Program-made: the position numbers and the translations under genes | Notes under the pieces: generated by a model | What the model was told of the DNA's origin: nothing | Databases searched by the model: none | What the model saw: the letters and a program-made list of their open reading frames with translations, nothing else | In this document: one piece after another, positions 19,471 to 63,216 of the stretch | Position numbering within the stretch: the stretch's first letter is position 1 | Layout of the letters: each line of letters begins with the position of its first letter | Origin: Clytia hemisphaerica | Lineage: Eukaryota > Cnidaria > Hydrozoa > Leptothecata > Clytiidae | Assembly (NCBI GenBank): GCA_902728285.1 | Contig: CACVBU010000957.1 | Span: 124,001-188,000 of the forward strand | Length of the DNA stretch: 64,000 nt | Direction: 5' to 3'

Positions 19471-19827
19471 TTAACCCTATTCGTACTGGGGGGGGCTATT
19501 TTTTACCACCTGAAAACTTTTTTTGATAACTTCTGTAATTATATGGTTGATTACATTTAGCTTAGATTTGTAAATGACGAGCGGGGCGATAAATCCGTAA
19601 TAGCCCCGCTTTTTTGTAATCGCCCTGATGTAAACAAAAATTTCTATTGGTTGAAAAGTATCGTACGATATCTTTAGAGCATTTTGATTGGTTAACAAAA
19701 TATCGTACGACTTTTTAAGCCAATCAAAATGACAGTGTCAATTGAATGTTTTTTATAATTTCGAAAGTTTTCGAATTTTTGAAAAAAATAGCGAGCAAAA
19801 GGAAAAGAATTCAAAACACAGAAGAAA

Positions 19828-23473: not shown

Positions 23474-24253
23474 TTAGGAGAAACTAATTATTTTATTACC
23501 TTTACCTTTACGAGGTGATAACACGCTCATTTCAAATTTTCTTCTTTTTGAGACATTTGATGATGGGTTTCGTAACAGTTTGTCTTTATTATTGTACATT
23601 CTGCATTTTGCGTACCAGTTACGAATAACAGCAATTCTGAACTCGCTGCTCGAATATATCTGTTGCTTTTCCGTGATGAAATGAACATTTTTCCAGATTG
23701 TGAAGGTATTGCAATACGCGTATGTCTCAATTAAGGAATCAAGCACTCGGCTCTGTTTACGAACACTACGGCACTCGCTGTTGTAGTATGCTTGATGTTG
23801 GTTTGTACGGTCAACCATCCCATAAATCTGGCGATAAAAAACCACTGAGGGTGGAGTGTGAATGGCCTGTCCGTTCACCTCAATTGAAGACCAGTTTTCC
23901 CTGGCAGAATCAACATCATTGTCAAGGAAGCAAACTGCATTATTATCGTTCCAATATGTCAAGTTCAAATTTTCGTGATGTAGGGACTGTGAGTATCCTC
24001 TGACAAAGGATTTGGTATTCTTTAGAAATGAGCTGTGTTTCTTTGGAAGATGGGCCCTATTTCCACGAACAGTAGCAATGATTCGGGTGTTCCATATGCT
24101 AGCTGCATCTTTCAAAAGTTGAATAGTTGGAAATCCACTATCAATCACCACAAGTTTTCCCATATGTTTTAGCCCATCTAAAAGTTGCTCAACGGTGTTG
24201 TAATTTTTTCCAGAGCCCGTGTTTATGAACGTTTGCTTGCCGATTTCATTTCA
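23474..24253 (-). pseudogene. piggyBac transposase, 5'-truncated
   Basis: The frame on the minus strand is open from about 24253. It encodes TVEQLLDGLKHMGKLVVIDS, then RIIATVRGNRAHLPKK, LTYWNDNNAVCFLDND and YGMVDRTNQHQAYY, ending in a Lys-rich tail. This is the C-terminal half of DDE_Tnp_1_7 (piggyBac). Counting from the ATG at 24163, Asp8 and Asp118 correspond to the second and third catalytic Asp. The first Asp and all upstream sequence are missing, cut where the satellite core begins at about 24262. The usual Cys-rich C-terminal zinc finger is not seen. Non-autonomous piggyBac-like elements at 3.9, 26.4 and 41.5 kb have TTAA targets of the kind this enzyme family uses. Confidence 0.8.
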
Positions 24254-35600: not shown

Positions 35601-38413
35601 CCCAGCAGTGGCAATCCATTCAGACAAGATGAAATGCCTTCATTCAGTCACTTTTAAGGTTAGTCATTCGGATGATATATGATTTTTTAATTGACAGGTA
35701 GTTGGTGTTAAAATAGGTGTATTTCTTTGTGTCTGAGTAAGGGAGTTGTAATAAAAAATCTCATTTTCCCTTGCAGTTTAGCCAATGACATCACTATTTT
35801 GCTCATAAAAGGTTTGCCCGGGCCTAATCAGTCCTACTTCTTAAAGATATCTTGAATTTACTGTTATATATTTGGTGAAAAATGTTCCTTTATATCCATT
35901 AGGAAATGGAGCTTTACTTGGGGACATATGGTAAGCGCGCTCACAACAAAAACGTTTGCTGGCCAGATTGGAAGAAGGCAGACAAAAGCAACAAAAGTCG
36001 AGGTAAGCCCTGATTAAAATAATTTTACCCTCAAATCACTGTAACAAAATAACTAATTTACGGATTTATGGAAATGAGCTTTTTGTTTTATCAATTATTG
36101 TGAATCGTAGAGACACGGTGGGTATTAAACTTGGGCCTCCCAGGCGGGAGTCAAAGTTCATAACCACTATACCACCACGCCTAAAAATCATCTCCTGATC
36201 GATATGTGGTTTAACTACCATTTTCAGATCAGTGAATTTTCCATCTTTGGGCATTATACCACTTTGAAAATTTTCAAAAAATAATCAAATCTCTTTCGGA
36301 AATTATGTAGATACACTTAAATTTGATATTTTCCAAAACCTGTATGGTGATGATTGATCTTAAAAGCGTAAACTAAATTGATTAAAATTTTTTTTTCAGC
36401 ATGCAAGTTTCCTTGGTCAGAAATACCATTTGACATCGCAACTGAAATTGCTGAAGGTAAACCGATAAATTTTCTTTCCAGATAGTCATTTCACCTTCAA
36501 GTATTTTTGCGAAAAAGTATAAGGGATGTCATTAATTTCTATCAATTCTCTTTGCTCCTAGTTTGTGGAGTTGCTGATATTCCAGAAGCACCAGCGTCCG
36601 AAGTCCAGTCGGCATCATTAGTGACTGAATTGTATTCAAAAGTGAAAGAATTTTATCAAGAGTATGGTATGGGATTTATATTGCGTCGACACTAAATTGA
36701 TATGAGAATTATACCCTATGGTGTTTAACAATGCATAGACGATTGGGGGTTGGGTAAAACGGAACCCTTAACAAGAGTAAAAAATTATTCTAGAAAAGTC
36801 AATAGCGTACCAGTACCACCTGTTAGAGTCTGCATACACTACAAGATGTTCGCAATATACTGCAGCTCGATTTGCAATATTCCAACAATACAGGGGGGTT
36901 GTTCACAGAAAGAAAACTTTCCTTTTTATAATATAGTATCAGTTGTTTACTTCGCACATTACAGTCCGCAAGCCATATTGTCGATTATCGCCTACCTCTA
37001 AGCAAAACGCACTGACGGATATAAAGCAGATATTCAATAAGTAAAAGTTGGTTATTGAGATTTATAAACCCGAGGCGGTGTCATATTCAACGAGGCGAAG
37101 CTTTGCTTCGTCGAATATTCATCAAGCTCGACTGAATATTTTTCGATATTCGAATTTTCTTGTCGAATATCTGCTTAATATTCTCCATCAATATATTGTA
37201 TAGTCTACCTTAAGGGAAGAAATTTTCGCGAGAAGATATTTTCGCGAGAATTTTCGCGAGAGGAAATTTTCGCGAGAATTTTCGCGAGAAGAAATTTTCG
37301 CGGAATTTAATTTCGCGAATCAGAGTTTCAAAATGGCAAATTTCGCGGAATTTGATTTCGCGAATGAGCCGATTTCAAAAGTTTCACGGAATTTAATTTC
37401 GCGATTGAGAAGAAGTTATCAACTTAGATTAACTTTTAAGCATCACGGAGTTGTTTATATTTGTTTATATTTGATAAAAAATACACGTTATGCTTAAAAA
37501 ATCAATTGTGTCCATCATTTTTGGTAACACCTGGTCAAAAACAACAAAATAAAATTAGAAGAGAAAAAATTGAATTTCGCGAAATTTAATTTCGCGATTT
37601 AACAATTTTGGTGTGATTCGCGGAATTTAATTTCGCGAATTACGCCCCAATTCGCGAAATTAAATTCCGCGAAAATTTCTTCCCTAAGGTAATTAGCCCT
37701 TTAGATGTAGTGTGTCCGATATAGAAGTATCGAGTATATCAATACTGTATATATTTCTAAATAGTGTTCTAAAATATAAGTCATCTACGATGTAATTATT
37801 TTGCATTTCAGGTCGGGATGATAATCTAAATGAAAATAATGTACCAACAAACGCGGATACAGTGAGTGTACTTTTAAAATTCTTAAACTGGGATTTTTCA
37901 AATATTTCTGTAACCCAGTTATAAAAGGCATCTTAAAAACTATCCTAAACTTAAAAAAAGACAAGCTAAGCCGTACAAATCTCGTACCCGTACCTTCTCG
38001 GTTTGGTTAAAAATTTAGAGTACCTCTCTATTGGGATAATTTTTTGTTTTAAGATAACGATGACGCCAGATGCAAAGCAGAAGTATGAAGAGATGAATAC
38101 TCCTAATAAACGTATTTACAAGCAGGTAATTTCGATTTTTTTTAAATTGAAAAGCTATTCAAATACCTGCAAGTCTAAGGTAATTTTCTGAGAAAAAAAT
38201 CTGTTTAAATTTGTCGTTACTGTTGGATCGGGCTGTTTCCGTGTATTACGCCATGAATACAGTTGACACTCACTAATTTGATCTTCAAAGGGAATTGGGG
38301 AATTTATTACGAATTTCTAAGGACGATTGACAGTTGATGTTGTATGAAATTTACATTGATATTTTTAGGCATACGAAGATATCAAACGAGCCAAACTGAT
38401 GTTTGAGGAATAG
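32640..38413 (+). CDS. Unrecognised 11-exon protein-coding gene
   Basis: Exons join in frame with GT-AG borders: 32640-32834, 33302-33413, 33972-34130, 34426-34572, 35527-35658, 35903-36002, 36400-36456, 36562-36666, 37812-37861, 38054-38125 and 38369-38413. They give about 390 residues ending KLMFEE-stop. Exon phases agree at all ten junctions, strong evidence for a real gene. The 5' end is open: the first exon starts inside a codon, and no start exon was found. Visible stretches include KALNQAHDNYGCHSVGRGTL, SAIYNKIVGQSVHAN and TTWFHPFTGFKR, with Trp-rich FLIAWCTWHND and WPDWKKADK. There is no transmembrane segment, zinc finger or known catalytic motif. I do not recognise the family. Introns hold two CCTTAAGG MITEs, a fold-back element and a SINE. 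Confidence 0.65.
33551..33880. mobile_element. CCTTAAGG MITE with TTTCGCG repeats, copy 1
   Basis: CCTTAAGGGAAGAAATTTT at the left and AAAATTTCTTCCCTTAAGG at the right are flanked by TA. The interior repeats GCGGGAATTTAATTTCGCGG several times. TA borders suggest a TA-target element. It is located in an intron of the unknown gene. Confidence 0.75.
34781..35316. mobile_element. Fold-back element in intron of unknown gene
   Basis: Arms of about 240 bp pair imperfectly: CTTTTGAAGGAATTCTTC opposite GAAGAATTCCTTCAAAAG, GTGAGTGGAACAATTT opposite AAATTGTTCCACTCAC, and TCACTGTGAAGAAAT opposite its near complement. The spacer near 35010 is about 60 bp. Target duplication was not identified. Confidence 0.7.
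36105..36188 (-). mobile_element. tRNA-derived SINE fragment
   Basis: On the minus strand, GGTGGTATAGTGGTTA is an A-box-like tRNA start, followed about 40 bases on by AAGTTTAATACCC, a degenerate B box. It is the same type of tRNA head as the SINE at 52.4 kb. Only the head is recognisable. Confidence 0.5.
37021..37182. repeat. Small inverted-repeat element
   Basis: AAGCAGATATTCAA at the left and TCGAATATCTGCTT at the right enclose a central palindrome CGAAGCTTTGCTTCG. Confidence 0.45.
37208..37689. mobile_element. CCTTAAGG MITE with TTTCGCG repeats, copy 2
   Basis: Ends CCTTAAGGGAAGAAATTTT and AAAATTTCTTCCCTAAGG are flanked by TA. TTTCGCGAGAA repeats occupy the left part, and GGAATTTAATTTCGCGAA is repeated inside. 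It is the same family as the 33.6-kb copy, longer, with a one-base deletion in the right terminus. Confidence 0.75.
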
Positions 38414-39424: not shown

Positions 39425-40290
39425 CTATAAATTGTTACCACAACTTGCCCCAAGAAATTCAGCCATGTGAACATCGTTATGTTTTTATGTCTAATGTTGC
39501 CACAGCTCGCCACGCTTTGCCCCATTTGCCCCAAGGAATTCTGCTATGAGGATATCCCTGTGTTCACTATATGAAATGTTGCCACAGCTCGCCACACTTT
39601 GCCCCGTTTGCCCCAAGAAATTGAGCTATGAGGATATCCCTGTGTTCACTATATGAAATGTTGCCACAGCTCGCCACGCTTTGCCCCATTTGCCCCAAGA
39701 AATTTAGCCATTGGTAAATCCCTGAGTTATGTTCAGTGTATGAAATGTTGCCACAGCTCGCCACGCTTTGCCCCGTTTGCCCCAAGAAATTCAGCTATGA
39801 GGATATCACTGTGTTCTCTATAACGAGCTCTATAATTAATATGAAATTTTGCCACAGCTCGCCACACTTTGCCCCATTTGCCCCAAGAAATTCAGCCATG
39901 GGAACATCGCTGTATTCTCTATAACGAGCTCTATAATTAATATGAAATTTTGCCACAGCTCGCCACACTTTGCCCCATTTGCCCCTAGAAATTGAGCCAT
40001 GGAGACATCGCTGTATTCTCTATAATATAAAATTTTGCCACAGCTCGCCACACTCTGCCCCGTTTGCCCCAAGAAATTCAGCCATTGGTATATCGCTGAG
40101 TTATGTTCAGTGTATGAAATGTTGCCACAAGTCGCCACACTTTGCCCCATTTGCCCCAAGAAATTGAGCCATGGAGACATCGCTGTATTCTCTATAATAT
40201 AAAATTTTGCCACAGCTCGCCACACTCTGCCCCGTTTGCCCCAAGAAATTCAGCCATGGAGACATCGCTGTATTCTCTATAATAAAATTT
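39425..40290 (+). repeat. Minisatellite, units of 83-103 bp, about nine copies
   Basis: The phrase GCCACAGCTCGCCACACTTTG followed by CCCCATTTGCCCCAAGAAA recurs from about 39496 to 40208 at spacings of 83-86 bp, with two of 103 bp that carry an added CGAGCTCTATAATTAATATG. Open frames across it on both strands are by-products of the repeat. Confidence 0.85.
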
Positions 40291-40811
40291 TGGCCACACC
40301 CCAAAGCGTCCAACACAGGCCCCTCAAAAATGGTCCAACAAGGCTTAGAATATAGCTTGGAAGCCAACAAACCCCTCCCAAATCGAAATATCCAATGGAA
40401 TAAAGTGGAAAGGCTGAAATCGCCTTTTTCGCCCGAACTTTAAATTCTGAAAAATGCTAAAATACCCAGAAATGCCAATATATTCTGACTATGATTGTAC
40501 CAAAACGGGCGTTTTTCCTGTCCTATGTCCAGCATCCTCTCGGCCCAATATATAGGGGGGGGATTATCTGACCAGCGAAAGCTATTGACACTTCTGATGG
40601 ACGCGTGGCTGGATATAAGATTTCCTATATTTTCAGTACAGTCACCGGACCCACTGTACGGTGTGAATCATTTGGGCCCTGGAGCTGAGGCTGGTATTTA
40701 AGGTTCTTACACGCTTTTTTAAAAGAATATTAAAATGTTTCAAAGTCTAGATTTTGAGATATTACGTGGATAAAAAATGCTTATGATGGTTTTATGTTAA
40801 ATCAATTTTAG

Positions 40812-43039
40812 GGGAATTATTGTTAAACAGTACCCGAAGGAAATTGTGGAAGAAACAATAATTCCAGGAGATGGTTATTGCATTATCAATGCGGTGATTC
40901 ATTGTATGAGGCAGAAACAGATGAAAGTGATACCTTCGCGCGATGGATTACTTCAAATGATGAAGTACGAAATTTTAAAGAATTTAGAGCATTACGCATT
41001 GTTTATTGAAGAAGAAAATGATTTTGTTGGACAGCTAGAAAACTACATTTACAAGCGAAGTTACGGGTCAAATATCATTGACTTGATTTTATTTAGCATA
41101 AGCAACACTCTAAGACTTTCAATCAATATTTTCGAGCTGCACAATGGCTCATACACGCTTTTTAATATGAAAAGCATACATCCAAGAGATGAAGCGCCGC
41201 TGTGTAACATCGATGTTGTTCGTCACTCCGACCACTTCAATTCAATTTCAATAATCGGTTAGTATACACTTTTGTAGAATTTATTTCAAATGAAAAAAAT
41301 TCTATCCCACTTTTATTTGGATTGCCGATAGTTAGGGTGAAAACGGTCTACGCAAAAAAGCTTTGCATTTTGAAAGAATTTGAAGCATAACCATTTTTAT
41401 TCAAAATGCTTTAAAACAAATATATTGGTCCGGAAAGATTGAGTCTAAACTATTAAGACAAAAGATTGTTGTTCGAGTTCTTAACCTTTACCACGCCTTC
41501 TCTCTGGGAACTTCACCCCGTGCACGCCTTGTCGTTTTGGGAAAAATGACAGTTTTACGCTTTCCGTCATAACTTTTGATCTACTAAACCGATTAAAAAA
41601 AATAAGCCCAATCTGGAAAGCCCAATTATCCTGCTTTCCAAAAATGTTAAAATAAAAGGATTTTCCTCTATCAATGGTGACACATTAGTCTTCTGCCTTA
41701 GAGTTGAAAAAAATTCAAAACGCAATTTGTCATATTTTTCAAAATTTTACGTTTCGGTTAAAAAAAAAGTGGGGAGAACATTTGCGATACCATAATTTTC
41801 TGGCTCATTGTTTCCACCATTATAACTACAACTGCTAGCCAAAAAATCACAATCATACCTTTACTAGAAAAGGCAGAATTCATTTTTAGAAAACCTTGGT
41901 TTTCGAGAAAATTTCAACGTAAATCAGAGGCACGTAAGGCAGAGGCCCCTTGAGGTAATTTTTATGGGAAATATCACTAAAAACAGCTAAAAATGACTTT
42001 CCTATCATCAACCAGCATGAAAGCAATAGAAATAACTTAGTATATACACTTTGAAGCTCTTTGCAGCCTTATCAGAAGCCTTAACTTGGGTTTCGGTGAC
42101 GGTCGATGACGGCCGACAAGCCTCCAGTCCTCACCCTTAATGTACCGTCATACTAAAGAATAAGGAGGCAGAAACTTACATCAAACACTGACTAAACTAC
42201 AAACAAGCAATACATAACATTTCCAACCAATAAAACAAACCATTTTCCACTAAATAAACATAAAAAGTTAGTTACAGCAGTCAATGAGCTCATAATTTCC
42301 AAAAAAATATTTTGCCTGATTTTCCAGTTTGTTTTGACAGTTAAAATCGAAAGTAGGTGGTTTCAAACTATTGAAAATAGTTTGTTTACATTTTCTCTCC
42401 GTCATATAAGACATTTCCCGGGATTTAAAGGCGTCTTTAAGGCGGTAGGGCGGCTTTTCTTAACACCCCATGAAAAACGTATATTTACGGCTTCGGCTAT
42501 ATATTAGAACGTAAATTTACGGCTTCGGCGTGGTAAAGGTTAACCTTTTGGGACCGCCAGGGCGATTAAAATTGCCGACATTCCAGGATGCAAACGGCGT
42601 ACCTATTTTAGATTCTTCCCTTTTTTACATTTGAATTTACTCAAGTTTATAACTTCACTATTTAATGATTTAATTGTTAACATTTATTTTTCAGAAACTC
42701 CTTCATTCAATCAAGGTAACAATGAAGATATCCGGATGAACTTTCATAACCAAGGACTCGTCAAAACAGGTAAAACAGGTGTAATTCTTTGTAACGAACT
42801 TAGGATTTGGCTTATTTTAGTCTGTTAAACCTTTGGGTATGTCTAGGCTGCTTCTCAAGACCAATTTTTCCAATGCAATTATCTAAATTATCAACTTTTT
42901 CTCAGCAAAGACTCAGCTTGCCCTATAAAACCTTAACTTAATTATGTCTAAATAAGCTCTCACAACATTTTTTTTTTATTTTCAGAAACTAGAGAAGCAG
43001 ATGTTAAACCAAATTTGGACGATTTGACTTTTGAACAAG
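40812..43039 (+). CDS. OTU-domain cysteine protease gene, partial
   Basis: Exon 40812-41257 encodes an OTU domain. GDGYCIINAVIHCM holds the catalytic Asp-Gly-x-Cys (Cys12 counted from the GTG at 40846). RHSDHFNSI near the end holds the catalytic His130 in the usual H-F/Y-N-S setting. OTU proteases remove ubiquitin. Exons 42695-42769 (ETPSFNQGNNEDIRMNFHNQ) and 42986-43039 (ETREADVKPNLDDLTFEQ) follow in phase 1-1. The start exon is not found. The next phase-1 acceptor is at 45393, within the SWIM/MULE gene, so the two could be one transcription unit encoding an OTU-MULE protein, or neighbours. Confidence 0.6.
41481..42543. mobile_element. piggyBac-like element with TTAA duplication in OTU-gene intron
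   Basis: TTAA at 41481 and 42540 flanks perfect 13-bp inverted ends CCTTTACCACGCC and GGCGTGGTAAAGG. Near the right end CGTAAATTTACGGCTTCGG words are repeated. The 1.06-kb interior encodes no transposase. Confidence 0.8.
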
Positions 43040-43685
43040 GTATAATTAGAAATAATAACACGTTTTTATACACATATAGTGATACATTGTCTGAGTTTGA
43101 ATGCTTAAAATTACCGCAACTTTTTTTCTTTCATTATTAAATTTGACGTAACTGAAGGGGAAAACATTGGCGAGAAGGAATTATGGCGAATTGGGCGAAA
43201 AATTGCCAAATTTTTTTTCCGCCAAAATTAATTATATGGGGGATTCACCAAAATTAATTCTCGCCAAATTCGATTTGATTCGATTTTCTGTGGAATTTTT
43301 CTAATTCGGACAAATATAATAAGCTAAGTTGTAAACAAAACAAACATTCCTTATTCGCCAAATTTTATATTTTTTTTTTTTCCGCCAAATTGCATCGATA
43401 TTTCTTCTTGCCAAAACTCCTTTCATCCTTAACCCTATTTGTCAGCTAGTTTCCCAGGGAAATTTTTTTTAATTTTGACTCCATCACTGTGACGTGCAAC
43501 TAAATACGCTTTTTTGGTATATAAATGACCATGCTAGGATAGGTGCTATTTCATGGTGCTACTGGTGCGGAAGAGTTGCGGTAATTCCGGACGTGCCATA
43601 ACAAGCCCGAGTCCTTATATTTTTACTAGGCCTTTCGCGAACAGATGTTTTTAATTTGTTATAACTTTTAATCATGTCGGTCTTT

Positions 43686-43697
<12 letters not shown>

Positions 43698-43723
<26 letters not shown>

Positions 43724-44814
43724 AAAGAATTACAGGTATATGCACACAAGGGCCTCTCGCTGATCTTGTTTTACAATAACTTTGGCTTAAAAAACTTTTT
43801 TAGGTAAAGTCCGTCCCGTGGACTTCCTCGTACTCTCCACACATAGTCATTATGCGACTCTGTTTAATTTCTTTCGTCTGCTTTCTTCTTCCATTCTTTT
43901 ACTAGGTTTCTTTCCATTTTTGTCATATCGTCCGTAATGCTAATCTTGGAGTATTTTTGATGATTTTTTAATTCGGTCAACCTCTTTACAAATTTGTATT
44001 TTTCATGAGCGTCTGTAAATATGACTTTGATTGGTCGTGCACCTTGTGATTTTCCAATGCGAGAGACATAGGTGGGTTGCGTCATGATATTAACATCTTG
44101 CAGAAGCTCGTTAACGTAATCTTTCTCGCTATCGTTTTCACTCTGATTCACTCCATGGATTATGATGTTGGCATCATTTAATTGTTTTCTTTGCTCTTCC
44201 ATTATGTCTTCGAGTTTCTCGCTTCGAAGTAACTTTTTAATATTTGGAATGTTTAATTGATTATTTGTTTTTGTGATCTCAGCAAAACTTCTTTTTTGGT
44301 TGGAAATTTGATTTTTTCCATGGAACTTGGTATTCATTGTTTCTTCTATTTTCGTTGTCAGTTTTGTTTCCAAGGCGGAAAATTGAGTTTCGATCAGGTT
44401 GGTGACACAGTTCTTGTCTTTGATATATTCTTGACATCTTGTTTGGAGTTCCTTGACCACGTTGCTCAATTTTTTCTCATTTTCGTTTTTTAATTTTATG
44501 ATACTTTCGCAAGCTTCAATTTCTTTTCGGCTGTGTGTGCGGCTTTGGATTCGTTCTGCTTGTTCGTGGACTTTTTTGTGCAGATCTTTCGCTATGAGAC
44601 AGCAGTCTATACATACATATTTTCGATAATTTTTAGTCATAAACATTTGTAATTGATATATCGGTAGTCCGGTGCATGCATAGTGCAGTGTTCGTAGACA
44701 TTTATGGCATTCGAGTCTCATTTTATCGTTATCATTCGTACAATTGTGTTCCGTACATTGATTTGTTTCGTTTGAACCTTCGTCAGAAAACCGAATTTTA
44801 CCAGGTGATGCCAT
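43698..44814 (-). pseudogene. LINE ORF1 copy with (ATT)n tail
   Basis: The 316-aa minus-strand frame starts MASPGKIRFSDEGSNE. It has a PHD-like Cys/His cluster (CTEHNC, CHKC, HYAC, CIDC) at about 20-80, a coiled coil at about 85-180, and an RRM-like part with NIIIHGVNQSE, YVSRIGK and RPIKVIFT. Beyond the stop, VRGSPRDGLYLKK can be read before an (ATT)n tract and T-run at 43681-43725, the element's 3' tail. This is the ORF1 architecture of L1/CR1-like retrotransposons. No reverse transcriptase is present, so it is 5'-complete but lacks ORF2, like a HAL1-type non-autonomous element. Confidence 0.7.
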
Positions 44815-45133
44815 GTTTAGGTGAAATTTGGTTGAATTTTATTGAAATTTCGCCATTTTTTTCAAAAAAAAACGAAGAGCACGACCGTTCTGTTTGACGT
44901 CAATTTTTTTCTTATCTTATGCGCCAAAACCTCTTCTGGGGTACCGCCTTGTGTTTACGTGGGAAATAAAGCGTTGAGCGTTAGCTTGTTTGTTTAAATA
45001 TATGTTTGGATCTTTGAAATTTTTGAATGAACAAAAACTGAAAGAATATTATATATGATGGTGGAAACAACTATAAGTATATGAGTAACAGTTTAGCCTA
45101 CTGAAGTTAAAAATCACACCACCACATTTAACA

Positions 45134-48100
45134 ATGACTTTCCGAAAAAGGAAATGTTATAATCCTTTTCCTTCCACGTTCAGGGACATCAGAAACCGTC
45201 TGGCAAAAAAAATAACAAGAGTAAAGAAGTCAAGATTCTACAAGCGAGGTATGTCATTAAATATTATCCAATTTAATTTTTTGTCACCTTTTATGGTTTA
45301 TTAACATCACCGCCATAACTACAAAATTGAAGTCAGACCCAAAACACATTTCATAAAAAAGAATTTCAGTTTCGGTTATTTTTACTTCTTAGAGCACCAA
45401 AACAAGATCGTTAATGGAAATAAACATGAAGTTGTGGTTATTTCGGGTAAATATTATCGAATAATTTTAATCTAAAATGTTAAGCCATTTTTTATTTTTT
45501 TTGTGGGTGACAGGTGACAGACGAGGATTTATCAAACAAATAACTGTGTCCGATGAAAAGATTTAATCATATAGCATTGTTTCGTTAAAATTTCTTCCGC
45601 GAAATGCGCAATTTTCAAGACTTCAATTCGCCCACTTCAATTGACTCTCGTAAATTTATGTTTCATCATGTTTTCTACATTTCTGGTGGGGCGTGTAGTT
45701 AAACATGGCTATAAATTTTCTTTTTATCAGTAAAGAAGGCTGAGATGAGTCCTAGATGAGATTTGCGTTGCATCAACTCCATCAAACATCAAACTGAAGC
45801 TTTGTAATTTGAAATTTATATATTTGTATCATATTTCAAAAAAAACTATTATATTCAATCATAGATTCGGAAAGTGAGAATGAATTGCCAACAAGTAACC
45901 GCTACTCTGCACTATCAAACGAGGAAGTTTTCAACCCTATAGGCCAAGGTATTGAGACGGGTAAATTCTAAATGACGTCTAGATAAAATTAGTGGATGTG
46001 ATATCAATGGTTTTACTCAATTTTTCTATGAAATTTAACGTCAAATTTAGACAATAAATTCACAAGACAAGAATCTTACTGATACCATCGAATTTCTATA
46101 TATTTTTAGTAACAGATTCAGATAGTTATGTCACTGACGATAGCTTCAATTTCAAACCCTTTACCGCTCAGCAAAGCAAATCTATTGGTAAGAATTTGGG
46201 ATTTTCAAGTAAAAAAATCAGCTATAAAATAATGTCACTTTTTGAAAAAATATCTATGTTTTGGCCCATTTTACTTCGGAACTTTTTATGCTATACGCCG
46301 ATAAGGTGACAGTGGAATTTTATCTCAAGTTTTGTTCTTTTCGTATATAGACCATGAAGCTGTGATCCTAATCAATTCTGACAGCGATGAACAAAGTTTC
46401 CAAGACGACATTGGTCCTGCTTTACATTCCCCTGCAGTAATCGACAACGTGGGTGAATGCATTGAGGTGATTAGCAGTGGCAGACAACAGAAAAAGATAC
46501 CTCGGACTATTTGGGCAGATGAGCCGGAACAGATTGTGGAGGAGATTCCTTTAGATATTGACGGTTTGCAGGTATATAGGGTTATAGCATCAGAGAGAAG
46601 TGAATTTAGTGCCAAATTGAAAGATGGAAGGCATTGGAAAAAGGACTCTAGAACTGAATGGGCTGGTTTCAAGTCTGTGAGGTATAGAGATTGCTTGGGA
46701 GGTTACTCGTGTCCAAATACTGACTGTTTCTATTTTCTCGAATTCAAACATCCAAATAGAAATCGCTTCAAGAGAAAGAATATTTGCGAGTACTGTGAAG
46801 GAATCGGAGATTACACGCCATGCTCAGCAAGAAAATATACAGCTTTTCGATCAGACAGCGAAGCATATGTCTACCATATTGGGTTACACACTTGTTATGC
46901 TAAACAACAACATAACCGACCAGCTTCCATCGTCCAGGAAGCGGTTCAAAGAGACGCAAACGTAAGACCTCGGCAAATACAAACGATGAGTATATTATCG
47001 GATTTAAGAGCGAGAAAAAACTGGTCTGAAGTGGAAAGTAATGCACGAAAGGTTTTAAATGTAAAAAATCTTTCAAACGAGAAAATTAAACAAAAGAAAG
47101 TTATGGAGCCTCACGGAGGAAGTTTTGAAGCTGTCAGAAACCTAAAAACATACACCGACACACAAGATCCTTTGCTCATCAAAACCATAGACGAAAACAA
47201 TGAACTGGTTTTTAAAACATCGACTCTAGAGATGAAGATTGCTAAAAACATGGAAGCATCTGGTGAGCATTTCCTTAGCAAGGAGTATTGCCATTTTGAC
47301 GGCAACCATAAACGCGTCAAGAACTACGTAACACTAACGGCCAGCGTCTACCATCCTATGTTACGCAAACAACTAGTGCTAGCCAGTATGAATTGCAAGC
47401 ATGAAGACGAAACATACGTCCAGTTGTTCTGGAGAAATTTTAATGACGCGTTTAAACAAGTAAACCTTACGGAGCAAAAATTTAATCCAAAAGGCTGGGT
47501 TACGGATATGGCTGGGGCAAACTTCAATGGTTTGAGTAGAATTTACGGCGAGGATGTTATGAACAAAATAAAGGGGTGTGAATTTCATTTTAAACAATCA
47601 ATAGAAAGAAAGGTTAAGAAGTTAGGGGATCAAGGTGGTGAAACATTCAAAAAACTCGCGAATGAGTTGCTGCTATCAGCCACGGCCGAAGCTTACGAGG
47701 CTGCGATTAAAAAACTAAAAGATTTTGCCAAAGCTAGTGCTCCAGATCTAAAGGATTGGATCTCTTGGTGGGATGATCGAAAGGAGAATGTATTTCGAGC
47801 ATTTACAAGTTTTGGCGCTCCCCAAAGTAACCTCGCCGAAGTCGTACATGCAGGGTACAAACACCGGGATCGTATGGGTGTCAACCTTCTTGAATGCGCA
47901 TATTTTGATATAAGGGACAGTATCCTTTTAGCACTCAACCTTGGAGAGCTTGAAAAGGGGGGACACGAATGTGGATATGGTCAGTCCATTTCTTCAAGAA
48001 ACAAACAACAAGCATCAAGAGATATTGGGCATGCTGAAAGACTTGGTCGGGATCTGATGGATTTTACAGTTCAGCAGACTGGAAGTAGTGGAAAGCGAAA

Positions 48101-48848
48101 ATCTTGTGAGCCGGTGGAGGGCTGTCACCCACCCAAAAAGCGAAGAAACATTGGAAAGTTATTTGACAATAGACTTGAAACTGCAAAAAAGTTGGAGGAT
48201 ATGATGAAGGTTAAAAAGTTAACTCGGCTATCGTCTCAAAAAATCGAGTGTCAGATATTGGGAACATCTTCCGGAAGGGTACATTACACAGTAACTATAT
48301 GCAATGTACCTACATGTACATGTCCCGATTTTAAAAAGCAAGGGTTGGTTGTTTCCTGTAAACACATAATTTTTGTTTTTTTATTCATCATTCGTTCTGA
48401 GGAAATGTGCAATGAACGCCACATCGGTGATGACGACCTTTGCAATTTGCTTTCAAACGTTGAGGTTGACGATAAGTATAAAGCAAATCCGCAAAGGTTA
48501 CCATCATCAAACAGAGATCGTGGTGAGATTTTAAGGAGCCACCATCTCTACAACCAAGGTCAAACTTTCACTGTCCACAAAAAAGCTAAACGAACAGCTA
48601 AATGCTCTGCTCGGCAATGTCAGGAGATTCTGACCGTTGGTAAACTGGCATTACGTGTGGATGGTGCACTATCGGTGATTTACGAGAGACCGGAAGCAGT
48701 TGAGAGAAAATTTTATTTCTGTCCAAAACAGAACTGTGTTCTGCAGTTTCCAGTGTGGTCAAATATTAGACCACCTGGAAACACAAGTGAACTTAAATTC
48801 GAGGATGGCGTCACACTTGAAGACATTTCATTTTATACTGATATTTGA
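45134..48848 (+). CDS. SWIM zinc-finger MULE transposase-like gene, 946 aa model
   Basis: Exons 45134-45248, 45393-45446, 45865-45960, 46110-46187 and 46351-48848 join in frame from ATG 45134. The first exon is strongly basic (MTFRKRK, KKITRVKKSRFYKR). Middle exons are acidic linkers. The last exon, numbered from 46332, carries the RNase H-fold DDE core: Asp323 in HFDGNH, Asp392 in GWVTDMAG, CEFHFKQS, and Glu503 in SNLAEVVHAG. A SWIM finger follows at about 655-685 (CTCPDFKKQG ... CKH). Cys pairs near the N-terminus (CPNTDC, CEYC) suggest a further zinc-binding FLYWCH/WRKY-like fold. All internal junctions are phase 1. The long intact frame with introns suggests a live element or a domesticated gene. 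Confidence 0.8.
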
Positions 48849-48883
48849 TTCATTCGGTTTTGCAAAAGTGTAGTTTTTAATTA

Positions 48884-49222
48884 GAGAACCGTAATAGCAA
48901 GCACAGAACGTTGTTTTAACGTCCAAACAATGTTGTTTTCACATCAGAACATTATTTGGACGTTGAAACAATGCTGAAATAATGTTGTGTGTCTGGGAAG
49001 CTATTGTTAAAAAATCCCTTGCAGTAAAATTATTTTTCTTAATTTCACGTTCTTAAGATGTTGTTCTTAATTTTTAAACATCTCTGACTCAATTTTCTTA
49101 TAAAAGTAAAGTATCTGCAACATGTAACACTGTTTCAACCTCCAAATAACGTTCTGATGTCGAAACAACATTGTTTCAACGCGTCAAAACAACGTTCAGT
49201 CTCTGGGGTTATTACGGTTCTC
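48884..49222. mobile_element. TIR MITE just 3' of the SWIM/MULE gene
   Basis: GAGAACCGTAATA and TATTACGGTTCTC form the ends, flanked by TA. Homology continues inward as GAACGTTGTTTT and its complement. The interior is built from AACGTT and AACAATG words shared with the tiny MITE at 13.96 kb. Confidence 0.7.
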
Positions 49223-49225
49223 TAA

Positions 49226-50270
49226 AGACAATGTATCTTTTTTGAAGACTGTCATTTCTTTTAAATTTCCATTGAAGCCGTTAAGTACAGCACGAGTGTG
49301 TCAATTGAAAAACGGTATACTCATAGTAGTAATTTTTAGGAAATCTTCTTTTTTAGCTTGGCTGTCTATATGTCCTACATTAAATTTTCTTTATATTCTC
49401 TATGCTAGGTGTTGCGACGATGGGTTTGCTCTCTTTGCGGATAGGCCCTGCATTGGAACAAACATGACTCGTAGCGCATAGAATAGATTTAATCACAAGA
49501 CAAACATGTTTTTGTTTTGCAATCCCAATCGCGTAGGTTTTAATTCAATTCACATAGGCCAGTACCATAGACTATTCCCCTTTCAGGTGATAATCAGAAA
49601 TCACGCGATCACTGAAGTGGTACCAACTCTACTTACGGATAGGCCCCGTTTTAGTAATGGTATCTCTACAGTGATTGCCCACTTCTCTTACTAATCTACT
49701 TCTCTTTTACATATTATTTTCTCCTAAAAAAAAGAAAACTGAAGTATTTATGTCTTAGAGATTTTTAAACAAAACTGTACATTTTCTTTATAAACTTATA
49801 TATTGCACGAAGAAAAGGATCATACTGGCGTTTTTTAGTATTATTCTTGATAATCAGTTGCTTTTTATAAGTTAGTTTACTGCCAGGAGAAGCCAATGGA
49901 CGCAGGCGGTGGGCGCTTTTATGACTGGAACTGCCACTGTTAACCCGTTGTTTCGGTGTCGATGTTGCAACTTCTTTATAAACTTATTATATAGATAGAT
50001 ATTCGATATACCAATATATACCTAATATCTGGTGATAAAGAGATTAGAAAACGTATAAATCTTTTATTAATATGAATAACGTACTCATATATTTCTTTTG
50101 TTTTCATTTTTAAAAGAAAAAGCTAATCAGTTTTAAATCTCACTTGTTTCATTATAAAAAAGATTGTTTCAGTATGTACATTCTTTACAAAAGTCCTGCC
50201 TGCATATTTCTAATTCTTTTTACTTCACACAGAGCTTGCAAAAAAATTGTTCTTCTTATGTTTCTAGAAA
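49226..50270. other. Intergenic stretch
   Basis: GCGGATAGGCCC near 49440 and a related ACGGATAGGCCCC near 49636 hint at a small duplicated repeat. No gene is supported. Confidence 0.35.
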
Positions 50271-50275
50271 ACATT

Positions 50276-50620
50276 TTGACCCACGTAAAAAAAATTTGAT
50301 CCACGTAAAAAAAAATTAGACCCACGTAAAAAAAATTCCGACCCACGTAAAAAAAAAATTTGACCCACGTAAAAACAAATTTGACCCACGTAAAAAAAAA
50401 TTGGACCCACGTAAAAAAAAATTGGACCCACGAACCCACGTAAAAAAAATACCCACGAACCCACGTAGAAAAAATTCTGACCCACGAACCCACGGACCCA
50501 CGTACATTTCGGACCCACGAACCCACGCGCTTTTCTAACCCACGAACCCACGCGACCCACGAACCCACGGACCCACGTAACCCACGGACCCACGACACCC
50601 ACGCGACCCACGTAATTTAG
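50276..50620. repeat. CCCACG minisatellite
   Basis: About nine units of GACCCACGTAAAAAAAAATT (18-21 bp) pass into shorter ACCCACGAACCCACG units toward 50620. The minus-strand frames with FFFTWV or FLRGS repeats are artefacts of this array. Confidence 0.9.
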
Positions 50621-50624
50621 CAGA

Positions 50625-51384
50625 CTCGTAGTGGGACTACCGTGAGTATCACAGCGCGAATAAATTAATATTTTCTCTTTGAAAACTTGACCTCTGATAC
50701 TCAGGGTATAGTGGGACTGCAATTTGATTTTCTGATTTTTCCGACCCTTAGTAGGACTTTGGAAATACAAAAAGGTACCCTTAAGGGTGGTACCCTCCAT
50801 TTGCCTAAGTACCCCTCCCCCCAATCCTGCCTGACTTGACCAAAGCAAAAAGAAGGTTGACAAAATTCCGACAAAATCCCAAAATTAAAAGCGGACGCGC
50901 GTTGGACAAGCGCGATTCAGAGTAAAATATTGTACAGTTTCCTTGCTACCAAAATAGAAAATGTATTATAAACAAAGATGGCGGTCGAAAAACACTGAGA
51001 AATCAGAAAATCGCAGTTTTTTATGATGGTATTTTGGTTTGGTAGAGATATCTTGAGTCTATTCTGATTCAATACATCTACAGATACAGAGGTAAATAAG
51101 TTTTTCAAAAAAGCCACTGAATTTTTCTTTCAAGTAGTGTTTTTTTTAATTTTTAGAGTAAAATTCTTAAAAATTCTTTTCTTTCTCAATCATGTATGTT
51201 TTCGGCCGGGGTTTTGTCAAAGTCCTCAAATGGCCAAGTGGCCTGAAAACCTTTGTGCTGTACCCCATGGGGTTTTCATGCAACCACTACCTTGAAATTG
51301 GGTAACTTGCATTAGTTGAGGGAAACTTGTGCATCATAGGCATAGGCGGCATGCATAGCCATCAAAACAAATAAAAGAGTCCCC
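50625..51384. other. Intergenic stretch
   Basis: No supported gene or element. The stretch contains GATGGCGG near 50978 and plain AT-rich DNA. Confidence 0.35.
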
Positions 51385-52289: not shown

Positions 52290-52423
52290 CTAGTACCGCT
52301 CGCTTCGAAAGTTTTTTATTCTAAGAAGAGCGCCTCAAATAAAAAATTTGTGGTGGGAAGAAAACAATCACAATCTGATCTCAGGTTAAAAAGTACCGTG
52401 AGATCAGATAACTTGCATAAAAG

Positions 52424-52665
52424 GCGTTGTGGTATAGTGGACATCAACCTTGATTTCTGTACAGGCGGCCAAGGTTTGATTCCCACTCACAACGGTTCAC
52501 TTGGCAAGTAAACAAACCTTAGCCCGGGTCGACCCATCCCATGTGAGGGGAATTGGGTAGTCAGTTCAAGGTACTGACGGGATGCTTACTCAAAGCATCT
52601 ATAGTTGTGAGAATGGGCTCCAGAGCCTCCTGTAACTCAACCATAATAGATAGATATATCAGTGG
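52424..52665 (+). mobile_element. tRNA-derived SINE
   Basis: GTGGTATAGTGG (52429-52440) is an RNA polymerase III A box, and GGTTTGATTCC (52473-52483) a B box at tRNA spacing. A non-tRNA body follows and ends near 52665 with ATAGATAGATATA, a simple-repeat tail. The structure is a standard tRNA-headed SINE. Confidence 0.75.
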
Positions 52666-54228: not shown

Positions 54229-54323
54229 CATTATGTTTTTTAATATCATTATTAAATTTTTCTCCTCGTTCTTCCGTCAGTGAATTTTAATCATTGATTT
54301 ATTTTATTTTATTTCTATCAAAG

Positions 54324-56393
54324 TTAAATACAAAGAAATAAATCATGAATTTGTTGTTTTAAATGGGTCTTGTGATGTTGAAATGCCAAGAGCAGAAAAT
54401 ACTTCTGCAACATCAATCAACTCCAAAAACACTTCAGTGAGTGCCAGTGCTGTTCATCCTACTAAATTACAGGCTAGTGAAGAGAAATCCAGTCTACAAA
54501 ATGGACGTGCAGTTGATCATTTATTCACAACCACCAATCGCTGTAAAGCATCTCTCTTCATTAATACAGGAGAAAATCGAACTATCCATGTGGTACATTA
54601 TGCCCAACGAAAGCAAGACTTGTACACACAATCAACATTCTCCAAAACAGAGGATGAAAGTTATGAATCTAAAGTTACGTTATTTTTTATTCATGGAGTT
54701 GGTGGAACTATTCAAATGTGGGAACCCCAGATACATTATTTCCTTACTCTTGGTTATGAAATTATAGCATTGGATTTGCTGGGACATGGTCAAAGTGGGA
54801 AACCACGTGTATATAATGCATATCAATTCACAGAGCTGGCCTCTGATGTAATGTTTATTTTTGATAGATTTAGTAAACGTAGGAACGTTCTGATTGGACA
54901 CTCTTATGGCAGTTCATTTTGCACAATGTTATCGAAAGAACGAGCACGTAAAGTTTGTAAAACTGTTTTAATTTCTGGTGGAGGACCAACATTATTGATG
55001 CCAGATCGTTGTAGTGCTTTTTGTTTACCATTACCTTTCTTTGTTTGTATAAGAAAAAGTGTGGTCAAGATGTTTCAAAGGTAAAACCTTATCTTTTTTC
55101 GTATTTTGATGTTTGATGAAAACAGGTTTCTGGATTTCAACCATGGAAAATGTTCGATAACTATTTCAAAAGAAGGTTTGCATATGTACTTTAATCCAAA
55201 ATAATCACTGATAAATTATACTAGAAAATCTATTGATACCTCGTCTTATTCTTGTGGAAAGTTTTTCTAGTAAACTTTTCATTTTTATTTTTCTTCCCAA
55301 GGGCTTAGAATATATAAATTAGATTGGATCATTTTACAAATTAATTGTGTTTAAATTGAACGTTCTTTAAAACGGTAAACTATTTACTCCATTTTTCAGG
55401 ATGGCATTTCATGAAGAAACAAGTGATACTGTTCGTCAAAAGATTTCAACTTTTGAGATTTCATCTTTCGCTCTTAAAGCCATCATGCAAGGACAGGTAA
55501 AGTGTGAAGCCAATTACAAACGGATAAATTATGTTGAACCTAGGTAACAGCAGTAACAGTGTTGTGAAAGACAGATAAGTTATCATTTAAAAGATTTCTG
55601 CAGGAGTAATTAGTTATTTATAAGACCGTCGCGTTCTTTCAAACCTCTTGAAGCCTCATAGAAAGTACAGGGAGGTGATGAAATTCAGCTAAAATCTAAG
55701 AAAAAATTGATGATAATTTGAGAAAAAATACCGATACAGATGGGGTCTCACCCGGTGGAACCAGCGAACCAAAACTCGATGGGGATTAATATTTGAATTC
55801 CATTGTTTTCAAGCCAGATAATTCAGTAGGGATGGAAAATGTATTTGGAAAATAATTTGCAGTGAGGATTCGTTTATCTGATTATTTTCAGCGGGGAAAA
55901 AATGAGAGTAGAATTTCCCACGAGGGACAATTTTTTGCCAATATTTTCCAGTGGGAAGGGTTTCCAGTGAATCTGTGAGAAGAGAGTGTACACACAAGCT
56001 ACACAAGCTCCATTCAAAAGCAATAAGTAAAGAGAGTCTTCATAATAAAAAATTGTCTTTATATACCACGTGGAGGGAGTTTTATTGCAACCAATTTCCA
56101 ACTTTCCCGATGATTCTGTGACCAAAAAGATGAAGGGAAAGAGGAAATTTCCTCAAGCGAGACTGAAAGTTTGGAAAAACCTAAGAAAAAGATTAACGAT
56201 TATTTAATAAATACAGATGTACAAGTGTATAACTAATGCAATATATATTAACAGCCTTGGACTGAATGATATTTTGTTTATGTTTTTTGTTTTTGTTTCC
56301 AGAATTGGCACGAGTCAACAGAAGAATATCATGCTAGTTTGAATCTACCTGTACTGTTGGTTTATGGGAAAGGTGATCAGTTTGTTACTCTGG
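54324..56393 (+). CDS. ABHD8-like: ABHD8-like alpha/beta hydrolase, partial gene
   Basis: Exons 54324-55080, 55400-55496 and 56303 to about 56393 join in frame (phases 2 and 0). The first encodes a polar N-terminal region, then LFFIHGVGGTIQMWEPQ (oxyanion HG segment), IALDLLGHGQSGKP and the nucleophile elbow GHSYGSSF with Ser174 counted from ATG 54383. It continues to VLISGGGPT. Later exons give FEISSFALKAIMQGQ and LNLPVLLVYGKGDQFV, the strand bearing the acidic residue. The order and wording match ABHD8. The final exon with the catalytic His was not found, and the incoming phase of exon 1 implies an upstream exon also not identified. The last donor (GTGGGG) is weak. Confidence 0.75.
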
Positions 56394-56854: not shown

Positions 56855-58375
56855 TAAGAACTCTTACAAAGTATATGCTTATAGAAAATAAATATGCTCA
56901 CATTGTGCGCCGTCCCTTGTTTACTTTGTAAGAACTAATTACCGAAAGGTATATCACCCTCTATCAAGAGTTATTTATTTGATTCTTATAAAGTATATGC
57001 TTATAAGAAAAATAAATATGCTCATATTGTTTGCTGTCCCTTGTTTACTTTGTAAGAACTAATTACCGAAAGGTATATCACCGTCTATCAAGAGTTATTG
57101 AGTTGATTCTTATAAAGTATATGCTTATAAGAAAAATAAATATGCTCGTATTGTTCGCCATCCCTTGTTTACTTTGTAAGAAATAATTACCGAAAGATAT
57201 ATCACGGTCTATCATGAGTTATTGAGTTGATTCTTATAAAGTATATGCTTATAAGAAAAATAAATATGCTCATATTGTTCGCCATCCCTTTTTTACTTTG
57301 TAAGAACTAATTACCGAAAGGTATATCACCGTCTATCAAGAGTTATTTGAGTTGATTCTTAATAAAGTATATGCTTATAAGAAAAAATATGCTCATATTG
57401 TTTGCTGTCCCTTGTTTACTTTGTAAGAACTAATTACCGAAAGGTATATCACCGTCTGTCAAGAGTTATTGAGTTGATTCTTATAAAGTATATGCTTATA
57501 AGAAAAAATATGCTCATATTGTTTGCTGTCCCTTGTTTACTTTGTAAGAACTAATTACCGAAAGGTATATCACCGTCTATCAAAAGTTATTGAGTTGATT
57601 CTTATAAAGTATATGCTAATAAGAAAAATAAATATGCTCGTATTGTTCGCCATCCCTTGTTTACTTTGTAAGAAATAATTACCGAAAGATATATCACGGT
57701 CTATCATGAGTTATTGAGTTGATTCTTATAAAGTATATGCTTATAAGAAAAATAAATATGCTCATATTGTTCGACATCCCTTTTTTACTTTGTAAGAACT
57801 AATTACCGAAAGGTATATCACCGTCTATCAAGAGTTATTGAGTTGATTCTTATAAAGTATATGCTTATAAGAAAAAATATGCTCATATTGTTTGCTGTCC
57901 CTTGTTTACTTTGTAAGAACTAATTACCGAAAGGTATATCACCGTCTGTCAAGAGTTATTGAGTTGATTCTTATAAAGTAAATGCTTATAAGAAAAATGA
58001 ATATGCTCATATTGTTTGCTGTCCCTTGTTTACTTTGTAAGAACTAATTACCGAAAGGTATATCACCGTCTGTCAAGAGTTATTGAGTTGATTCTTATAA
58101 AGTATATGCTTATAAGAAAAATAAATATGCTCATATTGTGCGCCATCCTTTGTTTACTATGTAAGAACTAATTACCGAAAGGTATATCACCTTCTATCAA
58201 GAGTTATTGAGTTGATTCTTATAAAGTATATGTTTATAAGAAAAATAAATATGCTCATATTGTTTACCATCCCTTTTTTACTTTGTAAGAACTAATTACC
58301 GAAAGGTATATCACCTTCTATCAAGAGTTATTGATTTGATTCTTATAAAGTATATGCTTATAAGAAAATAAATAA
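56855..58375 (+). repeat. Minisatellite of about 13 units of ~120 bp
   Basis: Units start TTCTTATAAAGTATATGC and continue through AAATATGCTCATATTG, CATCCCTTGTTTACTTTG, AACTAATTACCGAAAGG and TATCACCGTCTATCAAGAG. Starts fall near 56860, 56980, 57097, 57227, 57354 and onward to 58338. Units are highly similar, with small length changes mainly at AAATAAATATG versus AAATATG. The array probably lies in the last intron or 3' flank of the ABHD8-like gene. Confidence 0.9.
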
Positions 58376-61357: not shown

Positions 61358-61950
61358 AATTTAAAAATCTTCATCTTTATTCAAATATATAAAATAATAA
61401 CAATAATAATAATAAAGCTTTACAGGTTTGCAGGCCACCGTGAAGACACATGGGCCTCTATAAACCGCTCCTACTTTTACAATGATCTTTTTGAAATAGA
61501 GTTTTTTTCGCGGGCTCCCCCGGACTTTCCATTTTGTGTTGTCTTCCTTTGTTTTAGCATTCATTTTTTCGGCTTCCTTACACCATTCTTTAATTATCTG
61601 TCTTTCATTTTTGGTCAAATCCTCTGTCACTCGGTAAGGAAAGCCTTTTTCTTTTGTTATTGCTTGCAACACTGTGTTCTTGTCCTCTTCGTTCGTAAAT
61701 GTGACTTTAATTGGTCGGTATCTCGCTTTATCTTCTCTTTCTTTCGTAAATTTCCCGATCCGCTGCGTCTCGGTAATCTTTACATTCCTCAGATGGAGCC
61801 GCTGACCAATAATTTTGTCATGGATAAATTCTTCGTCCTCGATTTTTGTTTCTTCTTCAGTTTCATCTGTCGATTCATCAATCCCATGAAAAATTAGGTT
61901 GCGTGCTGTAGATCGAATCAGCTGCTCCTCCTGTTTCAGTGTGGCTCGAA
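61358..61950 (-). pseudogene. LINE ORF1 fragment with AT-rich tail
   Basis: The minus-strand frame open from about 61945 encodes NLIFHGIDES, ITETQRIGKFTK, RPIKVTFTNEEDK and TEDLTKNERQIIKEW. It ends with KVRGSPRKKLYFKK and a tail with repeated AAT/ATT triplets at 61385-61420. Wording and order match the C-terminal half of the ORF1 copy at 43.7-44.8 kb (RPIKVIFT, DDMTKMERNLVKEW, VRGSPR), so it is the same retrotransposon family, 5'-truncated. Confidence 0.65.
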
Positions 61951-63216
61951 TCCTTCAGATCCTTGGTTAGAAAAAGCTATACCTGTTTACTTTTTTCTTC
62001 CCAGATTCAACAAGCCATCAACCAACAAAATTACCACTGACATCTGAAAATTCACACAACCTTTCCACTAGACACTTCTAAATTATCTGCCATTATGAAG
62101 ATGTTCCGAAATTAACCAATCGGGTTTACAATCGGAATTCCTCTGGGAGTTAGCGAGTCGGGAAATGTAAAGTTATGTAATAGGTAATACATAATTTTTC
62201 CGGGGGTTAAACTTATAAATAAAATTGAAATGGTTTGTTTTTTTCTTCATTATATATTTAAGTTTTCATTATCGAAATTCTAGAAATGCTAGTTTGTAGA
62301 CCATATTAGAAAATGGCTATATATTTCGCAAAATAAACACTTACAAAAGCTATTACTTACTATTTTTACCCCCGCTTTTTAAACAGCGTCTTCTGTGGGC
62401 GTGATATCAGGCGGAGACAAAACGCCCTCATCGTAAGATTATCGGGTTGTCTTATTGTTTGTTCCTTTTGTCGAGTCTGTCGGTCCTATTGTTCATGCTA
62501 AATCCATACACGATGACGTCAATGTTTGGCGGCATACCTGAAAATAAAAAACAAAAAGATTATCATATTATTTTTGCATGAATTACGCTACCTTATACGT
62601 CATTATAAAATTATACAAAACGAAAGCGAGTCTAGGCCGCCCGCCCAGAGCGCGGGCCCTAATATTTTTTCTCTCGCGGTCTTCAGGGGAAAACGAAAGT
62701 GATCGATATTCTTCGAAGGAAGAATTTGCCAAACAAACCCCTAGACAAAAAGATGTATTTTGAGGTTGGGAATGGATCCTGCGAAGATGAAAAAATTTTG
62801 ACTAGGCGTTTTTTTGGCAAAGCCAAAAACTCTAATTTTTTTCTTCCCTCAAGCTAAAAAGGTTACAGGTTTTGGGCAATCGAGGCAAAAATCAGCAAAA
62901 AGCTGGTGTTTTCCGTAAATCTGAGAATCGCGATAAGATCCTCACTGTAATTTTCTTTTCGAATCGCATCTCCAATGTTTTTCTCGATGTGTTTGGATGT
63001 GATTTTAGCGTAGCTCATTGGTGGTCTCTTCTCTTATTTCTTTTCGATGATGCTTTCAATCTTCTTTTCAAGCGTGGTTATATTGTTCAAATATAAAAGT
63101 TAATCATCTATTTTCCAATTAAGTTAGGAAAATTATTAAAAAGAATAATTTGAATCTTACATAATATGGTCTTCTTTTTATTCTTTATCCCGTTCCCTTT
63201 TCTCGTGGTCTTCTTC

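Follow-up and report, generated by a model that had tools for sequence, protein, structure and literature searches.

Do an exon for an OTU-type protease and the SWIM/MULE transposase exons downstream of it belong to a single gene, or do two unrelated genes lie side by side? The question arises from a 64,000-nucleotide stretch of the genome of Clytia hemisphaerica, a hydrozoan cnidarian kept as a laboratory animal (contig C663, positions 124001-188000 of a 417-Mb assembly; hereafter the window). An initial annotation had described OTU exons next to a SWIM/MULE transposase, connected through phase-1 junctions, and our analysis partly confirms this observation. With a probability that we put at about 0.9, the locus at 40323-50627 is a 5'-truncated copy of a Mutator-like element (MULE) in whose complete copies the OTU protease and the DDE/SWIM transposase form one gene.

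Linkage of the OTU and transposase exons

The joining of protease and transposase is seen in P0014, a deposited Clytia OTU-domain protein that maps exactly, with splice signals, to contig C256. Its gene comprises a five-codon ATG exon ending in AG/GTAAGA (slash, splice junction), an OTU exon, three small exons and a transposase exon; the first of its five introns is in phase 2 and the remaining four are in phase 1, with one GC donor. A hidden Markov model (HMM) built from four OTU sequences, that of the window plus three OTU-only relatives, and thus free of any fusion protein, matched P0014 (7e-11) and P0048 (9e-6) and, weakly, P0086 (0.012), while P0012 matched at 1.1, the level of shuffled sequence. 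All four are transposase proteins that had first been found by a transposase search. A third protein search returned P0014 and P0095 only.

Genomic linkage points the same way. Twenty-five OTU rows and 60 transposase rows reduced to 23 OTU loci and 39 transposase loci or fragments. Within a 10-kb limit, at least 14 of the 23 OTU loci lie 1.3-8.2 kb upstream of a same-strand transposase (expected, 0.011). With an added P0014 search, at least 15 of the 23, and at least 17 of 30 OTU loci overall, are linked, at 0.2-5.2 kb. These counts are lower bounds in which partners may be missed, the scored candidates being 54 of 118 for the transposase and 62 of 139 for P0014. Among the 30 OTU loci, no unlinked one has a nearby transposase in the wrong order. 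At the unlinked locus in contig C455 the OTU is kept, an insertion of about 5 kb is present, and likeness to the element ends before the transposase. The P0014 gene model and the linkage count uphold the earlier proposal of one gene, and they contradict the outcome named as its refutation, two unrelated genes.

Several observations weigh against a single gene. No transposase was found within 10 kb of 9 of the 23 OTU loci (8/23 and 13/30 in the wider counts). In an alignment of six OTU-transposase candidates the DGHC motif occurs in P0014 and P0048 only; P0086 reads NGPC and P0088 AGSG, and P0012 and P0069 show no DGHC motif. The OTU likeness of P0088 and P0069 was judged by eye alone, and neither matched an HMM at the limits used. 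P0014 and P0001, a deposited OTU-less protein, are gene models, so that the joining is known from models and not from RNA. The element might then hold OTU and transposase as two separate genes, driven by different promoters and wrongly joined in P0014, as the P0001 model (which starts at 45251) and the several kilobases of intron between OTU and transposase would allow. We consider this quite improbable, given the exact mapping of P0014 with splice signals and matching phases, the presence of OTU-like and transposase sequence within one predicted protein in P0048 (less surely in P0012), and the recurrence of the phase-1 linker exons in the diverged copy of contig C807.

Extent of the window copy and its complete relatives

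The surviving copy (40323-50627, plus strand) was delimited by blastn against copies in contigs C472 (99.8% identity) and C460 (97.1-98.5%), likeness running from 40323 to 50627-50630. The first 2.7 kb of the C472 copy, left terminal inverted repeat (TIR) included, has no matching block by blastn in the window upstream of 40323. The right TIR, made of ACCCACG-type minisatellite units, is present at 50310-50627 and its left partner is missing. A TIR search by comparison of the window flanks was unsuccessful because the left end is missing; its top inverted match (36100-36182 versus 52422-52500) resembles a dispersed repeat. A tandem satellite with an 82-101-bp unit (39445-40298) stops 25 bp left of the break point at 40323.

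The C472 copy, whose transposase is 100% identical to that of the window, is complete. It spans 12807 bp and has inverted repeats of about 320 bp composed of minisatellite units and a 9-bp target site duplication (TSD). Further copies measure 11477 bp (C558), 4498 bp (C784) and 12803 bp (C807), which places the larger three at 11.5-12.8 kb. The C472, C558, C784 and C807 copies terminate in GAGTCTGCTAAATTACG and are flanked by TSDs of 9, 9, 9 and 8 bp, respectively, within the 8-11 bp typical of MULEs; the duplications seen are GTATTTTTG, TTTTTAAAT, ATATCGAAA and GTATGCAG. By eye, no clear duplication flanks the C460 and C786 copies. Long TIRs, a trait of many MULEs, measure about 300-320 bp in the copies of C472, C460 and C784; the C49 copy has only its left TIR inside the stretch examined, and the window copy carries the right one only. 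No kin of the element was found in GTDB or IMG/VR contigs. OTU and transposase are very probably parts of a single gene in a mobile, multi-copy Clytia family.

Domestication by the host, raised in the initial annotation, does not fit copies with TIRs and target duplications. In its favor, the OTU and transposase frames are open in a copy for which no left TIR was found. A near-identical copy elsewhere has TIRs and a TSD, at least 39 transposase loci or fragments exist, and recent mobility explains the open frames; we regard a domesticated gene as very improbable. Lacking the left repeat and the candidate start exon described below, the window copy is probably unable to produce the normal fusion. 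It is probably also unable to jump by itself, supplying an OTU-less transposase at most.

Other parts of the copy lie outside the coding exons. An internal inverted repeat 3' of the gene (48881-49225) also occurs inside the C472, C460, C49 and C784 copies. The intron after the OTU exon holds a 1055-bp TTAA-flanked insertion (41485-42539) with ends CCTTTACCACGCC..GGCGTGGTAAAGG, absent from C472 and C460, which we take to be piggyBac-like from the TTAA and end sequence only. The C472 copy contains an 874-bp TTAA-flanked insertion between candidate start exon and OTU. A minus-strand frame within the MULE intron (43864-44838), with a weak PHD match (E 0.04) and presumably LINE ORF1-like, is also present in C472 and C460 at 100% amino acid identity, inherited with the MULE; no counterpart was found in the C807, C558 and C786 stretches.

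Exons, splice phases and linker motifs

The OTU exon (40812-41257, plus strand) is entered in phase 2 and left in phase 1, and its acceptor is kept in C807, C558 and C786. Its Pfam OTU score is exactly at the cut-off. The predicted model has the OTU fold of OTU cysteine proteases and matches OTU structures along its whole length. The expected catalytic D, C and H residues are present in the window, C472, C807 and C558. The dN/dS comparison proposed earlier yielded part of an answer: between the window and C807, Ka is 0.195 for the OTU, 0.233 for transposase residues 173-831 and 0.343 for residues 1-172, but Ks is saturated and no finite ratio between subfamilies results, while changes within subfamilies are too few. 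With OTU Ka close to that of the transposase core, the OTU is constrained about as strictly as the core.

The main transposase exon (46351-48848, plus strand) encodes a putative zinc-ligand region, the DDE catalytic domain and a candidate SWIM finger, and the transposase frame is identical to P0001, an NCBI protein of C. hemisphaerica. Candidate catalytic positions fall within 47298-47840: D316 (47298), D385 (47505), the CxxH residues C409/H412 (47577-47588) and E496 (47838). D316, D385, C409 and H412 do not vary across 44 aligned sequences, and each of E496, W469, W472 and W473 is present in at least 90% of them. The predicted model shows an RNase-H-type catalytic domain nearest to ISCth4, followed by Hermes, RAG1 and the P element. 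Like MULEs, the family thus has a DDE transposase related to IS256 with a CH motif and W between the second D and E, a trait described as shared by hAT transposases (PMC5225508). No Pfam MULE model matched the transposase family. MULE transposases typically also have a zinc-finger DNA-binding region of WRKY-GCM1/FLYWCH and/or SWIM type. The candidate SWIM zinc finger (48291-48383, plus strand) scores 18.1 bits in Pfam, below cut-off; at E 0.01 the match is found in 20 of the 44 members of this alignment (A1). The N-terminal Cys/His cluster is kept in 9/9 slices, and a PDB sequence search with this zinc region gave no match, so that kinship with WRKY-GCM1 would be speculative.

Between OTU and transposase lie plus-strand linker exons. 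E2 (42695-42715) is a possible small phase-1 exon with AG/GT signals and alternative donors further on, and has no convincing counterpart in C807. E3 (42986-43039), also a possible phase-1 exon, has a doubtful C807 counterpart, EIGDVDVKP (E 0.5). The basic exon E4 is placed at 45134-45248, with a provisional 5' border. E5 (45393-45446), E6 (45865-45948) and E7 (46110-46187) are each phase 1 at both ends. These three, together with the start of E8, recur in C807 in the same order and in phase 1. Four linker junctions are conserved in a diverged subfamily whose transposase is 68% identical to that of the window over residues 172-831.

Phase 1 at all internal exons, as first described, holds for the linkers but not for the OTU exon, which is entered in phase 2. 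Skipping this exon would consequently break the frame, contrary to the idea of a freely skippable OTU, and no result shows the exon skipping by which a variable protease/transposase protein was to arise. The ATG exon at 45134, proposed as the start of an OTU-less form, fares no better: the exon that appears to correspond to it in C807 is internal and lacks an ATG (31% identity over 26 residues, E 0.03, a weak match joined by order and donor), and P0001 starts in another exon, at 45251-45295 (plus strand) by tblastn mapping and protein sequence, and uses acceptor 45395 at E5. If alternative splicing or an alternative start served to make transposases both with and without the OTU by design, it could draw on the frame-neutral phase-1 linkers and on the existence of the OTU-less model. 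We judge such a mixture unlikely in view of the 2-in/1-out OTU exon and the missing ATG in the apparent, weakly matching E4 counterpart of C807. The OTU-less model of the window is equally explained by a lost 5' end, and the transposase part of P0001 is encoded identically in the C472 copy, so that the model is not tied to one locus for certain.

Where the single gene begins is suggested by P0014, whose start exon sits 2.4 kb upstream. A candidate start exon, ATG GCA ACA ACA AAC AG/GTAAGA (five codons, phase 2), is found in C472 and C460, in the part lost from the window, about 1.6 kb upstream of the OTU if the 874 bp inserted in C472 are not counted. Another candidate, also in phase 2, lies at similar distance in C807 and C558; the candidate start exons of C472 and C807 are unlike in sequence, which weighs against the one-gene reading. 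The gene of complete copies would start in a small ATG exon, enter the OTU exon in phase 2, continue in phase-1 linker exons that may encode SUMO-interacting motifs (SIMs) and end in the large DDE/SWIM transposase exon.

The first possible SIM, EVVVIS/DSES, spans E5 and E6, with E5 ending within its core (C807, EVLVIS/DSED). The second, VILINSDSDE (46362-46391, plus strand; C807, PIVIHDSSDEE), fits looser patterns only. We counted SIM patterns, of general form or of our own making, in 35 linkers from 95 proteins, which are related, so that counts are not independent. P0034 and P0057 (fusions with other domains) and proteins without DGRxW or with fewer than 65 residues before it were dropped, and the OTU parts of six proteins were cut off. 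The strict pattern occurred in 5/35 linkers versus 0.76 in shuffles (reached in 0/1000). Two looser patterns occurred in 4/35 versus 1.66 (80/1000) and 5/35 versus 3.64 (290/1000); neither is clearly above shuffles, which counts against a SUMO link. With these mixed statistics, both motifs possibly represent SIMs kept in two subfamilies. In some relatives (P0003, P0025, P0037 and P0086) the N-terminal linker includes a C2H2/C2HC-like finger, in P0086 alongside OTU-like sequence.

How might a transposon use such a protease? The OTU may remove ubiquitin from the transposase complex, host factors or chromatin at cut ends, and may spare the transposase from ubiquitin-dependent removal; linker motifs may steer it to SUMO-marked sites. 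The element would then encode a SUMO-guided deubiquitinase-transposase in which linker SIMs bring the OTU to SUMO-marked complexes or chromatin, controlling transposase lifetime or end repair. We offer this as a tentative and rather doubtful proposal, with the added reservation that deubiquitinase activity is a prediction from sequence. The putative SUMO-binding motifs are nonetheless the freshest lead. Near-identical copies, matching phases across diverged paralogues and an OTU under constraint similar to that of the transposase core, all in a laboratory animal, make the long-standing question of the protease's use to the transposon testable.

Neighboring sequences and known systems

The window contains other mobile-element remains. 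A second, different Mutator-like transposase lies at 15505-16838 (plus strand; Pfam PF20700, E 8.7e-30 for 15508-16077). The frame after it ends in what we take to be a SET-like sequence, with no Pfam match at 0.001. A minus-strand frame at 61361-61954 presumably is LINE ORF1-like, as is that at 43864-44838; both have TTA/TAT-type low-complexity sequence close downstream, no ORF2 was noticed, and they are perhaps ORF1-only non-autonomous LINEs. A DUF3504/QRICH1 frame of 429 codons (19792-21081, plus strand) is of a kind that we associate with Crypton-derived genes. A DDE_Tnp_1_7 fragment (23474-24250, minus strand) is presumably of piggyBac type, and TTAA-flanked insertions also occur in the MULE copies (window 41485-42539; C472). 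The window further holds an alpha/beta hydrolase gene fragment (54284-55084, plus strand) and a 124-bp satellite of about 12 copies (56862-58374), also found in the C13 stretch.

An OTU domain has been published before for a cnidarian MULE: Table 1 of Dupeyron et al. 2019 (PMC6446971) lists MuDR-6_HM, a cnidarian MULE of group 14, with 'Ovarian Tumour Gene'. By this listing MuDR-6_HM resembles the Clytia element, but it is entered with no TIR and no TSD given, whereas the Clytia element has TIRs and 8-9 bp TSDs. New here are the anatomy (boundaries, TSDs, phases, constraint and linker motifs) and the recognition of the window copy as truncated. By its description in the same paper, the Ghost clade is also similar, having a MULE transposase, arthropod members with SWIM and some cnidarian sequences, but no OTU is listed for it. 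Rehavkus, as described there, shares a 9-bp TSD and a minisatellite near the 3' TIR; its PHD finger lies within the transposase, whereas the sole weak PHD match in the Clytia element is in the LINE-like frame on the opposite strand.

Ginger1 of Hydra and others is likewise a DNA transposon with a protease domain, OTU or Ulp1, in its transposase (PMC2836005). It is described with a Gypsy-integrase-like transposase, a C-terminal protease and CCGG/CCGT TSDs, in contrast to the IS256-like transposase, N-terminal protease and 8-9 bp TSDs of the Clytia element, in which the OTU precedes the transposase. The same paper cites Mutator elements from plants, Hydra and lancelet that also carry a ubiquitin/SUMO-pathway protease, Ulp1 and not OTU. 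Bao et al. describe OTU domains for both Ginger1 and Helitrons and Ulp1 domains for Mutator elements, and propose that these proteases act in transposition (PMC2836005). Ubiquitin/SUMO proteases thus recur across unrelated transposons, namely Ginger1, Helitron and Mutator elements.
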